Below, in pieces: positions 9,221 through 14,092 of a DNA stretch of 41,264 bases. The stretch is from assembly GCF_003205235.1 (NCBI RefSeq), contig NZ_QJSM01000012.1, positions 1 to 41,264 on the forward strand, written 5' to 3'. Both the position numbers and the translations under genes were made by a program. Numbering within the stretch: the first letter of the stretch is position 1; every line of letters begins with the position of its first letter. The DNA comes from Thermoplasma sp. Kam2015. GTDB lineage: Archaea > Thermoplasmatota > Thermoplasmata > Thermoplasmatales > Thermoplasmataceae. The notes below the pieces were generated by a model that saw only the letters and a program-made list of their open reading frames with translations, did no database searches and was not told where the DNA came from.

Positions 9221-10318
9221 TCAATAAACCTTCACCTGCCGGTACAGGTTATCCCTCTCCACAGGGACCATACCGAGATCCTTTATGCTCCTTATTATGA
9301 TCTCCTTATGCAGATTGCCCACGTTCTTGCCAGTTGCCGGTATCACGCGTTCATCATAGATTGTACCGCCCCAATCGTTTGACCCGTAGAGTATGGCAAG
9401 CTGTCCCATCTCCACACCGTTGGTGAGCCAGGAGCTCTGTATTATGGGAAGATGATAGTTGAGCACTATTCTTGAGATGGCAACATTCCTGATGACGTCC
9501 TCGGCCTGTGATCTATGATCGAGAACACCCTCCCTCTGCAGCTGAGTATTATCAGGTTCCATGTTCCATGCCGTGAAGGATAAGAAGCCATGGTACTTCT
9601 TCTGGAGATCCCTTATCGCTATGAGGTGATGAGCCTTGTTCACGCTCTTCTCTATATGACCATACACCATGGTTGCTGAGGTCCTGACTCCGATCCTGTG
9701 CGCAGTCTCCATGATCTCAAGCCACTGTTTGCCGCTTCCAGGGGGCCTTCCAAGGGCTACCCTGACGTCCTCATCCAGTATCTCGGCGCCTGCACCGGGT
9801 ATTGTCTCCAGGCCAGCCTCTCTCAAGATCGATATGGTATCCTCATAGCTCATCCGCGCCTTTCTGGAGATGAAATTTATCTCCGCAGTGGAGAGCCCGT
9901 TTATACCTACATCCGGGAACTCCTTCCTTATCCTTCTGAATACCTCAATATAATAATCAAGATCCAGATTGGGATTGACTCCGCCCTGTATGAGCACCTG
10001 GCGTATACCCAGTGGATAATACTTCCTGATCTCCTCTATAACCTGATCGGGCGTCATCGTGTACGCATCAGGCTCCTTGCCTGTTCTGTAAAAAGCACAG
10101 AATTTGCATCTAACATTGCACACGTTCGTATAGTTGAGTATTATGTTTGAAACGAATGAGACGCGGTTGCCGCTTATCCTTTCGGTTATCTTTCTTGCGA
10201 GCTTGCCAAGATCGTTCACGTCTGCTTCGTCATACATGAAAATGATATCATCTACATCCAGATCCTCGCCACTCTCCACTTTTCTCTCGATTGATGAAAT
10301 GTAATTGGATACTATCAC
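9221..10318 (-). CDS. mqnC: cyclic dehypoxanthinyl futalosine synthase (radical SAM), menaquinone pathway
   Basis: A 365-residue radical SAM enzyme of the MqnC type. It cyclises dehypoxanthine futalosine (DHFL) to cyclic DHFL in futalosine-pathway menaquinone synthesis. The [4Fe-4S] motif is CNVRCKFC (C67, C71, C74), followed by AFYR, GIRQVLIQGGVNP, IPGAGAEIL (the MqnC/E/CofH fingerprint) and SATMVYGHIE. The tail GGTIYDERVIPATGK matches MqnC better than CofH or MqnE. It starts with GTG at 10318, with a TTAATAAC box about 23 bp upstream. The paralogue mqnE (12237) and mqnA (13331) are on the other strand 2 kb away. The B12/radical-SAM gene lies immediately upstream on the same strand, 51 bp away. 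Confidence 0.9.
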   Translation of the reverse strand: MIVSNYISSIERKVESGEDLDVDDIIFMYDEADVNDLGKLARKITERISGNRVSFVSNIILNYTNVCNVRCKFCAFYRTGKEPDAYTMTPDQVIEEIRKYYPLGIRQVLIQGGVNPNLDLDYYIEVFRRIRKEFPDVGINGLSTAEINFISRKARMSYEDTISILREAGLETIPGAGAEILDEDVRVALGRPPGSGKQWLEIMETAHRIGVRTSATMVYGHIEKSVNKAHHLIAIRDLQKKYHGFLSFTAWNMEPDNTQLQREGVLDHRSQAEDVIRNVAISRIVLNYHLPIIQSSWLTNGVEMGQLAILYGSNDWGGTIYDERVIPATGKNVGNLHKEIIIRSIKDLGMVPVERDNLYRQVKVY

Positions 10319-10369: not shown

Positions 10370-12067
10370 TCATGAATTTTCCTCAGAACCGCGGATACGC
10401 ATACCCCCTATGACTTCCTCATAGGATCTGTAAAGCAGTATGAGAAGCGAGGTGAGAGTCGGCTTGTGCTTGTTGGACCACTCTATATCCTTGCTCATGT
10501 ATGCAAGATGTTTGTCTACCCTGTTGCTCTTGCAGTAGTTATTTCCATGCCTATAGTTCTGCACATTTCTTATTATGGTATCCCTTGTTTCGCGATCTAT
10601 GTCGCCTACATCGTATCTCAGCTGGGTCATCCTTATCTCAGCGTCATAGGTTGCGTTCACTATGTCCTCCCTGCTCATCCACTGAGTCTCATAATCAAGG
10701 AAATCATACCATGTCTTTCCGGTGTCAAGTATGTGGTATATTTCTGCCAGGCTTCTGGCGAGGACATTGAAGCCATAAAGATCGGACTTCTCGTACCAGA
10801 GTGATCCGGGATCAACAAATGGCGCTATGGGGGATATGAAGGTGCTAAGCTTCATTCTGGATCCCTTGAAGTCCTTCATCAGTTTACCAGCATATTCCAC
10901 CGTATCGATAACATTGCCGTAGTCCTGATGAGATAGCCCGATGGAAAAGTAAACATCAAATTTCTTTGATCCGTATTTTTCCGCCAGCCTCAGGGATCTC
11001 TCGAGATCCTCATTGCTGTATCCGCTCTTGTTCCAGTTTCTGATACTCTCATCTGAGGTTTCTGGAGAGATCTCCATGGAAAAATCGACCACGCTCCTGC
11101 TGATCGCCCTTGCATAATCCTCGTTGAAGGGCTTGAAGTACTCAGTGAGTATCGGTATGTCTATTCTGCGATCTCTCAAGCACGCAAAGAACCTTTCATA
11201 GTACTTGGGTCCGGCGAGCGCAAGATCTCCGACCACGAAGACAGGGGAGCCCAGTATCTCTTGGGACAGTTCTATCTCGTCCACAACCCTGCATGGATCC
11301 CTGAACTGGTAATTGATCGCAAAGTTATTCTTATATGAGAAGTTCGAACCTCCGCAGAAACCGCAGTTGAGCTGGCAACCCCTCTCTATGAGGGTGAAGC
11401 CTTCAGGGTTGCGCAGCCAGTCTGCATAGGGAAGATGACCCTTTATGTCGTGATATTTTATTGCGTTTTTAAGCAGAACCTCATAGTTGAAAAAGACGTT
11501 TTCAAGGCCTTTTCTGAAATCATATGGCCTCTCCTCCTTTATCATGCCGTTTTCCCTGTGAACAAGCCCGGGAACATCCGACAGCGATCCACCTTCGATC
11601 AGCGTTTCAGCCAGCTTATATATGCCATACTCCTGAAAATCGCCAGCCAGCACAAAATCCACGAACGGATAGTTCTTCATTATCTCCTTCCTGAAGTAGG
11701 TTGAAGAGTAGCCGCCGAATACAATGTATGAGTTCGGATGCAGGTTCTTCACGATCCTTGCCAGATTGAGCGCCCCATGTGCGTGTGGGAGCCAGTGAAG
11801 ATCTATGCCGTATATTGGCGCCTCAAGATCCCTGAGGTATGATACCGGATCAAACTTTTTGGACTGCACCATCCTGACGGCCACGTTTGCTATTCTTGCA
11901 TTGAAGCCATTCTGAACCAGATAATTAAGCATGCTCACAAAGCCAACAGGATACATCTCGAATACCGGGGTGGATGGGACAACGTCGCTGATAGGCCCTG
12001 GATCTATATCCCTCTTCCTGAAATCATATATAGATGGAGGGTGTATAAAAACAACATCAGCATTCAT
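10370..12067 (-). CDS. B12-binding/radical SAM protein, Ta0216-type family
   Basis: A 565-residue protein. Residues about 1-170 form a cobalamin-binding-like Rossmann domain (VVFIHPPSIYDF, YPVGFVSMLNYLVQNGF, YIVFGGYSSTYF). The classical DxHxxG is only partial: D89 and H91 without the Gly, as in many class-B enzymes. Residues about 225-470 form a radical SAM barrel with CQLNCGFC (C231, C235, C238). A family-specific 90-residue tail follows. I recognise it as the family named after T. acidophilum Ta0216; its reaction is not known to me. It sits between mqnC and mqnE. Class-B enzymes typically methylate unreactive carbons, so ring methylation of menaquinone, or a related thio-methyl chemistry, is a reasonable hypothesis. 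A GCTTAAATAC promoter box lies about 34 bp upstream. Confidence 0.85.
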   Translation of the reverse strand: MNADVVFIHPPSIYDFRKRDIDPGPISDVVPSTPVFEMYPVGFVSMLNYLVQNGFNARIANVAVRMVQSKKFDPVSYLRDLEAPIYGIDLHWLPHAHGALNLARIVKNLHPNSYIVFGGYSSTYFRKEIMKNYPFVDFVLAGDFQEYGIYKLAETLIEGGSLSDVPGLVHRENGMIKEERPYDFRKGLENVFFNYEVLLKNAIKYHDIKGHLPYADWLRNPEGFTLIERGCQLNCGFCGGSNFSYKNNFAINYQFRDPCRVVDEIELSQEILGSPVFVVGDLALAGPKYYERFFACLRDRRIDIPILTEYFKPFNEDYARAISRSVVDFSMEISPETSDESIRNWNKSGYSNEDLERSLRLAEKYGSKKFDVYFSIGLSHQDYGNVIDTVEYAGKLMKDFKGSRMKLSTFISPIAPFVDPGSLWYEKSDLYGFNVLARSLAEIYHILDTGKTWYDFLDYETQWMSREDIVNATYDAEIRMTQLRYDVGDIDRETRDTIIRNVQNYRHGNNYCKSNRVDKHLAYMSKDIEWSNKHKPTLTSLLILLYRSYEEVIGGMRIRGSEENS

Positions 12068-12207
12068 AGGGCACGCGAAGACATTTTTCTGCCGTATTTA
12101 AGCATTTGTCGATGCTAAGTGCGCAAAAATCTTAAATACGTCAAATAAAAAACCAGTTTGCATCTCACGCACCCCTTGATGAAGCTTTTCGCAATGCTGG
12201 CTCCAAG

Positions 12208-12217
12208 TTTAAATATC
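12208..12217 (+). promoter_or_regulatory. TATA box of the mqnE-mqnA operon
   Basis: TTTAAATATC is centred about 25 bp before the ATG at 12237. The 169-bp divergent region 12068-12236 also holds a CTTAAATACG box at about 12131 on the plus strand and a GCTTAAATAC on the minus strand serving the B12/radical-SAM gene. The two arms of the menaquinone cluster therefore share one control region. Confidence 0.55.
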
Positions 12218-12236
12218 AAATGACAATGAGTATAAA

Positions 12237-13334
12237 ATGATATCCTACGATGTTGAATACTGGGTCGAGAGGGCAAGATCCTCCCCCATAACCTTCAACG
12301 AGGCAATGGAACTGTCCGGCATGGATCTATTCGACCTGATGAAGATAGCCAATAGACTTACCGAAACAGACGTCGGTGAAACTGTCACCTACGCTGTTTC
12401 CTACAATATAAATTATACAAATTACTGTACGGCAAGCTGCCCAATCTGTGCCTTTTATGTGCCCTACAAAAACAAGAGATTTGGGAAGGGCTATGAGCTG
12501 AGCAAGGAAATGATAATGCATGAGGCATACGAGGCCAAGAAGAGGCAGGTTACGGAAATACATATAGTCGGCGGCTTTGATCCCGATCTTACGATCGAAT
12601 ACTATGAGGACATGTTCAGGACAATAAGATCAATAGTGCCGGATGTCACCATAAAGGCGTTTACCATACCGGAGATAGATTTCATAGCCAGAACGACAGG
12701 AAACAGTATAAAGGAAGCGGTCTCAAGATTTATGGAAGCCGGTATGAATGCGCATACCGGAGGCGGTGCCGAGATATTCGATCCGGAGATAAGGAAGATC
12801 GTATCTACGCCTGAAAAGATATCCGGAGATAAGTGGTTGGAGGACGCGAAGATAATCCATTCCATGGGGCTCAAGGGCAATTCAACGATGACATATGGCC
12901 ATGTCGAGGGATGGAATCACATCGTCGATCATATGATAAAGATAAGGGACAATCAGTTGGAGGTTCCGGGATTTCTATCATTCATTCCTTTGAAGTTCAG
13001 TCCTGAAAACACTGCTCTTCTCAGATCCGGAAGGGTGAAGGGGCCGGCACCGGTGGACAAGGATCTCAAGGTCATAGCACTTGCCAGGATCATCATGGGC
13101 GATGCCATAAGAAACATAAGCGTCTACTGGGTTGCTCTGGGAAAGCTTGTTGCGCAGATAGCCATAAACGGCGGAGGAAGTGATCTGGTCGGCACAGCGT
13201 ACAGTGAGAAGGTTTTTGGAGCGACGGACAGAAGAACACCCACAACAACGGAGGAGCTCAACCGCCTGATAAGGCAGGCTGGGAAGATACCGGCCATAAG
13301 GGATACTTTCTACAACATAATGGCGTACGCATGA
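12237..13334 (+). CDS. mqnE: aminofutalosine synthase (radical SAM), menaquinone pathway
   Basis: A 365-residue radical SAM enzyme. It adds the adenosyl radical of SAM to 3-[(1-carboxyvinyl)oxy]benzoate to make 6-amino-6-deoxyfutalosine. The cluster motif is CTASCPIC (C64, C68, C71) followed by AFY. Then come EIHIVGGFDPDLTIEYY, TGGGAEIFDPEIRKIVS, GLKGNSTMTYGHVE and FLSFIPLKFSPENT, all typical of MqnE rather than CofH or MqnC. A hallmark of the family is use of the intact radical for addition instead of hydrogen abstraction. It overlaps mqnA by four bases (ATGA), so the two consecutive first steps of the pathway are co-translated. Length is normal. Confidence 0.92.
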   Translation: MISYDVEYWVERARSSPITFNEAMELSGMDLFDLMKIANRLTETDVGETVTYAVSYNINYTNYCTASCPICAFYVPYKNKRFGKGYELSKEMIMHEAYEAKKRQVTEIHIVGGFDPDLTIEYYEDMFRTIRSIVPDVTIKAFTIPEIDFIARTTGNSIKEAVSRFMEAGMNAHTGGGAEIFDPEIRKIVSTPEKISGDKWLEDAKIIHSMGLKGNSTMTYGHVEGWNHIVDHMIKIRDNQLEVPGFLSFIPLKFSPENTALLRSGRVKGPAPVDKDLKVIALARIIMGDAIRNISVYWVALGKLVAQIAINGGGSDLVGTAYSEKVFGATDRRTPTTTEELNRLIRQAGKIPAIRDTFYNIMAYA

Positions 13335-14092
13335 TATCCATAATAGACTTCGCTCACAGCGATCCCCTTTACCTGGGGTTCGAAAACAAGGCCATCGTGG
13401 TGCGCAATAATCCATTCAAAAATCTTGATCTGGTGCTTTCCGGAGACGTTCAGATAGGCATGGTCTCCTTGGTCTCTTATCTGGAGAACGCCGAGAGTTT
13501 GCGCCTTCTGAAGACTGCAAATATACACTCACTGAACAAGACGATATCGACGATTCTGATATCGAGGGCGAACAGACTGAAGAAGGAGATCACAGTTGCC
13601 ATAACGTCCAATACCAGAACAACCGAACTCTATCTGGATCTCGTGCTGTCAAGGCTTGGAATAGATCATAAATTCGTGCATTCCGATCGGAAGGAAGCCG
13701 ACGATCTTTTATCTCTTGCCGAATATGCACTGCTGAATGGTGACGAAGCCCTGGCCGTATACAGAACAAGGATCAACATACTTATGGACGTGGGCAGTGC
13801 GTTCGCACGCATATTTCACATTTCTCCAGTTTACGCCGTGTCAGTTTCGAGGATCGAGGAAGATCCAGATACAGCAGCGCTGGATAGTGCAGTGGTGAGA
13901 TCCGCAGAATTCAAGAGGGAGTGTGCCAGATCCCTCGCCGATCGCCTGAAGATACCAGGTACCGTGGCGGAAGATTACTACAAAACGATACTATACGATT
14001 ACGATACCCATGTATCTGAAACAATAGAGTTCGTGAAAAAGGCCTATGAATCAAGGGCTAGGGATGGTCTATCATCTTCCATGTTCCGCTGA
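13331..14092 (+). CDS. mqnA: chorismate dehydratase MqnA
   Basis: A 253-residue MqnA/MqnD-fold (periplasmic-binding-like) protein. It fits MqnA, which converts chorismate to 3-[(1-carboxyvinyl)oxy]benzoate, the MqnE substrate. Features are the opening IDFAHSDPLY (like DYLNARPL in bacteria), the LDLVLSGDVQIGMVSLVSYL segment, a conserved TSNTRTTELYLDLVL motif (like S-x-TS), LLNGDEAL (the GDxAL motif) and DVGSAFARIFHISPVYAV (like DLGxxWxxxTGLPFVFA). The sequence is divergent. Its coupling to mqnE makes MqnA far likelier than MqnD. Neither mqnB nor mqnD is present in the window. Confidence 0.85.
   Translation: MISIIDFAHSDPLYLGFENKAIVVRNNPFKNLDLVLSGDVQIGMVSLVSYLENAESLRLLKTANIHSLNKTISTILISRANRLKKEITVAITSNTRTTELYLDLVLSRLGIDHKFVHSDRKEADDLLSLAEYALLNGDEALAVYRTRINILMDVGSAFARIFHISPVYAVSVSRIEEDPDTAALDSAVVRSAEFKRECARSLADRLKIPGTVAEDYYKTILYDYDTHVSETIEFVKKAYESRARDGLSSSMFR

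Follow-up and report, generated by a model that had tools for sequence, protein, structure and literature searches.

Does the position of a radical SAM gene within a menaquinone (mqn) gene cluster reveal what its product does? The question is raised by a gene in the window (the whole stretch of 41,264 nucleotides analysed here, from Thermoplasma sp. Kam2015), which an earlier note, made from the sequence alone, had located between mqnC and mqnE-mqnA and proposed as a maker of thermoplasmaquinone or methionaquinone. The location was confirmed, with a divergent gap on the mqnE-mqnA side (Table 1) and a spacing of 51 bp to mqnC. The divergent MqnC/MqnE-type protein reached 334.5 of the 428.1 bits required for MqnC and 311.2 of the 434.6 bits required for MqnE, so that its name mqnE rests on context; its gene overlaps mqnA by 4 bp. 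In the gap, TATA-like boxes lie at leaderless distance in both directions, TTTAAATA at 12208-12215 (+) for mqnE and gcttaaatac at 12094-12103 on the minus strand for the radical SAM gene. A possible weak box (TTAATAA) is located about 24 nt upstream of the GTG start of mqnC, which may thus have its own weak box, making co-transcription with the radical SAM gene only a candidate arrangement.

Table 1. Features of the radical SAM locus, in positions of the window
Feature	Positions	Strand	Evidence
TIGR04190-family cobalamin-binding radical SAM enzyme, 565 aa	10370..12067	-	810.3 bits vs cut-off 500
B12-binding domain, residues 33-143	11639..11971	-	Pfam PF02310, E 4.1e-10, over cut-off
Radical SAM domain, residues 229-392	10892..11383	-	Pfam PF04055, E 1.5e-11, over cut-off
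CxxxCxxC [4Fe-4S]/SAM motif, residues 231-238	11354..11377	-	invariant alignment columns
mqnC, downstream neighbour, same strand	9221..10318	-	TIGR03699, 437.0 bits, cut-off 428.1
MqnC/MqnE-type radical SAM protein, mqnE by context	12237..13334	+	below both curated cut-offs
mqnA	13331..14092	+	PF02621, 72.7 bits
Divergent control region, 169 bp, TATA-like box in each direction	12068..12236		consensus only

The predicted protein matched the NCBIfam family TIGR04190 ('B12_SAM_Ta0216') over residues 4-552, its nearest named relatives being those of Thermoplasma sp. KMA_Bin19 (98%) and FL (91%), in line with the assignment to Thermoplasma in the earlier note. Across the TIGR04190 alignment (23 relatives) the sole invariant cysteines were Cys231, Cys235 and Cys238. 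The AlphaFold2 model had a mean pLDDT of 86.3, and its top Foldseek matches in the PDB were all cobalamin radical SAM enzymes (TsrM, MgmA, TokK, OxsB, CysS); a PDB sequence search with the same protein gave no real match. Based on its domains, family and modelled fold, the gene product is assigned to the class-B (cobalamin) radical SAM enzymes, in agreement with the earlier note. No Pfam match was obtained in the protein for the methylthiotransferase domains UPF0004 and TRAM or for HemN_C; a B12-binding domain is present. The papers searched for TIGR04190 or Ta0216 contained chance string matches only.

To place the locus within its order, we searched 117 genomes for TIGR04190, MqnA/D and MqnC/E. 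The gene adjoins mqnC/E only in the five genomes of the window's genus, and a second Thermoplasma locus has a whole syntenic block in common with the window. In every other genus with comparable coordinates, Ferroplasma (F. acidarmanus Fer1) and Cuniculiplasma (C. divulgatum S5) among them, the gene lies far from mqn. Among the genomes of the order that are at least 85% complete, 37 carry the gene together with mqnC/E, 17 the gene only, 3 mqnC/E only and 16 neither, which leaves 17 of the 54 gene-positive genomes without mqnC/E. Correlated loss of the gene and mqn in the window's family gave p = 0.050 without correction for kinship, too weak to use.

A scan with one genome per species returned at least 564 relatives, and the 80 retained include members from Chloroflexota, Proteobacteria, Nitrospirae, Zixibacteria, deep Thermoplasmata, Hydrothermarchaeota and Methanomassiliicoccales. 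All ten members tested, nine of them from outside the searched families of the order, passed the TIGR04190 cut-off (603-693 bits). Within 35 distant carrier genomes, we found homologues of NuoD (Complex1_49kDa) in 31, of UbiA in 34 and of MqnA/D in 10, the other 25 lacking the latter, and MenD exceeded its cut-off in none of 47 carrier or comparison genomes; many of these genomes are incomplete MAGs, which weakens single absences but not the overall pattern. Outside the window's taxonomic family, members thus occur mainly in genomes without futalosine genes, the outcome that the earlier note had named as speaking against its own proposal. Adjacency to mqn was rejected as a family-wide signal, being confined to one genus and one syntenic block, and the position of the gene next to mqnC is an arrangement of this genus. 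The mqn linkage from which the earlier note had argued was not supported as a functional signal, nor did the gene co-occur with mqn genes across genomes as a futalosine-pathway component would, and because the linkage is limited to the genus, the thermoplasmaquinone/methionaquinone reading does not follow from the place of the gene.

Genes related to mqn were also seen in other settings. In a family of the order without MqnC/E (f2), an MqnD-like PF02621 gene and TIGR04190 are 1.2 kb apart (L038:1056-4855), and at three loci from genus g2 and family f2 (L063, L064, L072) mqnD-like genes occur together with genes of the isopentenyl phosphate kinase and IDI-2 types; both of these types are also found near TIGR04190 in the I-plasma family. 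PF02621 also has a second subfamily (E ~1e-46), found next to CN_hydrolase and Memo genes at three loci (L074, L075, L081). It is kept in four genomes that lost mqnC/E (G063, G064, G066, G095) and may serve another pathway. In the window's own genome, about 250 bp ahead of the mqnD-like gene, lies a gene for a radical SAM protein that carries DUF3463 (L062:8440-9465). A decayed TIGR04190 remnant with two stops (G103:C23:49822-50139) is present in a genome with complex I and without mqnC/E.

Among the neighbours of the gene, Pfam identified the complex I subunits NuoB, NuoC, NuoD, NuoH and NuoL/M. We traced this linkage with profiles built from the neighbour clusters, counting genes within 8 kb as linked. 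In deep Thermoplasmata the gene stands divergent and upstream of nuo operons (six loci: L119, L122, L131, L134, L136, L141), in Chloroflexota it lies within them (L137, L152, L153, L159), and in UBA381 (L145) and some Thermoplasmatales (L024, L035, L043) beside them. Mapped on the family tree, linkage to nuo shows about seven changes. For counts that are independent of the choice of loci, we sampled 119 genomes of the class of Chloroflexi isolate B1Sed10_194 (also the class of G144). The gene exceeded the cut-off in 16 of these, and 11 of the 16 carriers have it in or beside a nuo operon, with a chance expectation of about 2% estimated from genome and operon sizes; the genomes are related, and we give no p value. 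Two arrangements were observed in this class, nuoC-gene-nuoD or divergent from nuoA/nuoB, the former exemplified by a genome in which the gene overlaps nuoC by 4 bp (G203). A Pfam tally over 16 distant loci without nuo neighbours yielded mostly unrelated genes, and the gene was absent from several complex I-bearing Thermoplasmatales (G043, G063, G095, G102). The papers searched for cobalamin radical SAM enzymes with nuo operons contained nothing on the subject. One further genome, from a genus without mqn genes, carries two divergent TIGR04190 copies 13 kb apart (G089:C1:149785-151338 and 164288-165865), one of them directly after a nuo operon.

A second group of neighbours consists of prenyltransferase and related genes. 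In three of the five carriers of the B1Sed10_194 class without nuo linkage (G170, G236, G263), MenA-like UbiA genes stand beside the gene. In the I-plasma family a MenA-like gene and a UbiE methyltransferase gene adjoin it, with a second UbiA in some members, and in a Dehalococcoidia genome (L150) the neighbouring UbiA is the sole one found. At one locus (L139) the gene is flanked by two polyprenyl synthases, in a genome with an MqnA/D homologue and in which no NuoD was found. Within the 119 genomes, canonical MenA exceeded its cut-off in none of the 16 carriers vs 23 of the 103 others (p = 0.039, and p = 0.003 at a 200-bit limit, kinship ignored in both), and a divergent MenA-like protein was present in 13 of the 16 carriers. 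In view of this exclusion, we do not name the enzyme a menaquinone enzyme in general; combined with the scarcity of MqnA/D and MenD, it indicates that the carrier, if it is the substrate, is often not ordinary menaquinone. In one Chloroflexota genome (L183:7972-15686, G170), TIGR04190, a MenA-like gene, an AhbD/NirJ2-like radical SAM/SPASM gene, another MenA-like gene and a SAM hydrolase gene form a compact cluster, a candidate pathway to an unrecognised carrier.

Taken together, the complex I, MenA/UbiA, UbiE and mqn contexts make carrier tailoring the most economical reading. We tentatively favour a role in the respiratory chain, between complex I and the prenylated carrier that this complex reduces, where the enzyme would modify the carrier's head group. 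It probably acts on this lipid electron carrier (or on complex I itself), rather than as a member of the local quinone pathway. Methyl transfer is the commonest chemistry of class-B radical SAM enzymes, and the modification would most likely consist of a methyl group passed from SAM via cobalamin to an sp2 carbon, either with a 5'-deoxyadenosyl radical or by a polar, TsrM-like route. From the complex I and MenA/UbiA/UbiE contexts we therefore class TIGR04190 as a known but uncharacterised class-B family associated with complex I and with the prenylated electron carrier of this complex, a context not found in the literature searched. The quinone role proposed earlier thus holds in part: respiratory carrier metabolism is probable, given the nuo and MenA/UbiE neighbours in unrelated lineages, whereas thermoplasmaquinone or methionaquinone would be at most a candidate product. 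More speculatively, the family might mark an unrecognised prenylated carrier or step of its synthesis in genomes that combine complex I and a divergent MenA-like protein with no detectable Men or Mqn pathway for the head group, and the compact Chloroflexota cluster would then be a small pathway of this kind; we think this rather doubtful.

The main rival, which we consider possible but on the unlikely side, is that the target is complex I itself, one of whose protein subunits would be modified, for example through C-methylation close to the quinone site. The model for such an activity would be MgmA, which modifies methyl-coenzyme M reductase and ranked second among the proteins matched by structure (TM 0.72 on target). 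The location of the gene in nuo operons, with near-zero spacing in the nuoC-gene-nuoD order, or beside them in several lineages argues for it, as does the presence of complex I in nearly all distant carrier genomes. However, a subunit target leaves unexplained the MenA, UbiE, UbiA and polyprenyl synthase neighbours away from nuo, as well as the mqn neighbourhood. Moreover, among columns of NuoA/B/C/D/H/K invariant in up to 14 carriers, none was changed in at least three of six non-carriers, although a target residue may equally stay the same in genomes that lack the gene.

A special case of the carrier reading, with which its probability overlaps, is that in Thermoplasma the enzyme is the menaquinone C-methyltransferase making thermoplasmaquinone-7. 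The enzyme would then act on menaquinone-7 or its demethyl precursor, with thermoplasmaquinone-7 as a possible product. The gene adjoins mqnC and mqnE-mqnA and the enzyme class fits; furthermore, a search of five Thermoplasma genomes returned no radical SAM protein of the HemN_C type that MenK/MqnK represent, and therefore thermoplasmaquinone-7 stays a possible product in this genus. According to reviews that cite Shimada 2001 (PMC10821996, PMC6770870), T. acidophilum has comparable amounts of menaquinone-7, thermoplasmaquinone-7 and methionaquinone-7 when aerobic, and under anaerobic conditions thermoplasmaquinone makes up 97%. Such an anaerobic dominance would fit an oxygen-sensitive maker. 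On the other side stand the restriction of mqn linkage to the genus and the fact that, beyond the window's taxonomic family, most carrier genomes have no menaquinone genes. In addition, Cuniculiplasma divulgatum S5 (PMC5155288) carries both the gene (727.7 bits) and mqnC/E, and its main quinone is reported to be unmethylated MK-7:7 (PMC11349054), where 'main' allows for minor forms and growth conditions matter. On balance, this specific role appears unlikely.

Modification of archaeal tetraether or other isoprenoid lipids, as by the GDGT ring synthases GrsA/GrsB, is a reading to which we give little credence. It draws on the common superfamily with these synthases and on loci with isoprenoid genes of the isopentenyl phosphate kinase and IDI-2 types, but is weakened by full members in bacterial groups from which archaeal tetraethers are not expected (Chloroflexota, Proteobacteria, Nitrospirae), and by two other B12 radical SAM proteins encoded in the window's own genome, which are closer to lipid-type families such as HpnR/BchE. 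The weaker of the earlier proposals, that the enzyme adds the methylthio group in methionaquinone-7, is highly improbable: no maker of methionaquinone is known (PMC13386864) and ThnL, a cobalamin radical SAM enzyme, does form a C-S (thioether) bond (PMC13331322), but the window protein lacks a methylthiotransferase domain and has only the three radical-SAM cysteines invariant, Cuniculiplasma carries the gene with MK-7:7 described as its main quinone (PMC11349054), and methionaquinone is otherwise known from Aquificae (PMC13386864).

If a carrier is modified, quinones would be tailored here by a B12 radical SAM enzyme, a route distinct from that of the class-C enzymes MenK/MqnK, and the family would bring to light electron carriers in those uncultured archaea and Chloroflexota where complex I is present without a known quinone pathway. 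If complex I is modified, a respiratory complex would be subject to B12-dependent modification. In both cases, a 'function unknown' family of hundreds of genomes becomes a testable question, with cultured carriers at hand in Thermoplasma, Ferroplasma acidarmanus and Cuniculiplasma divulgatum.

Compared with known systems, the window protein is a full-length member of TIGR04190, with no sequence difference that would set it apart from this family, the function of which is uncharacterised. It lacks the UPF0004 and TRAM domains and the second cysteine cluster of the methylthiotransferases MiaB and RimO. The class-C C-8 methyltransferases MenK and MqnK have a HemN_C build and no B12 domain; the window protein has the B12 domain and no HemN_C, and the reaction possibly in common would be naphthoquinone ring methylation. 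Slr0320 of Synechocystis, linked to photosystem II, belongs to the same B12/radical SAM class, and quinone methylation was raised for it, without proof, by its authors (PMC8065906); its family, rSAM_slr0320 (NF045585), is separate and not among the NCBIfam matches of the window protein. Besides methyl transfer, ring contraction, ring formation and thioether formation are known among cobalamin radical SAM enzymes (PMC13331322). The structural matches TsrM, MgmA, TokK, OxsB and CysS share with the window protein the B12-binding domain plus radical SAM barrel, differ from it at 11-15% identity, and act on an amino acid, a protein residue or small metabolites.
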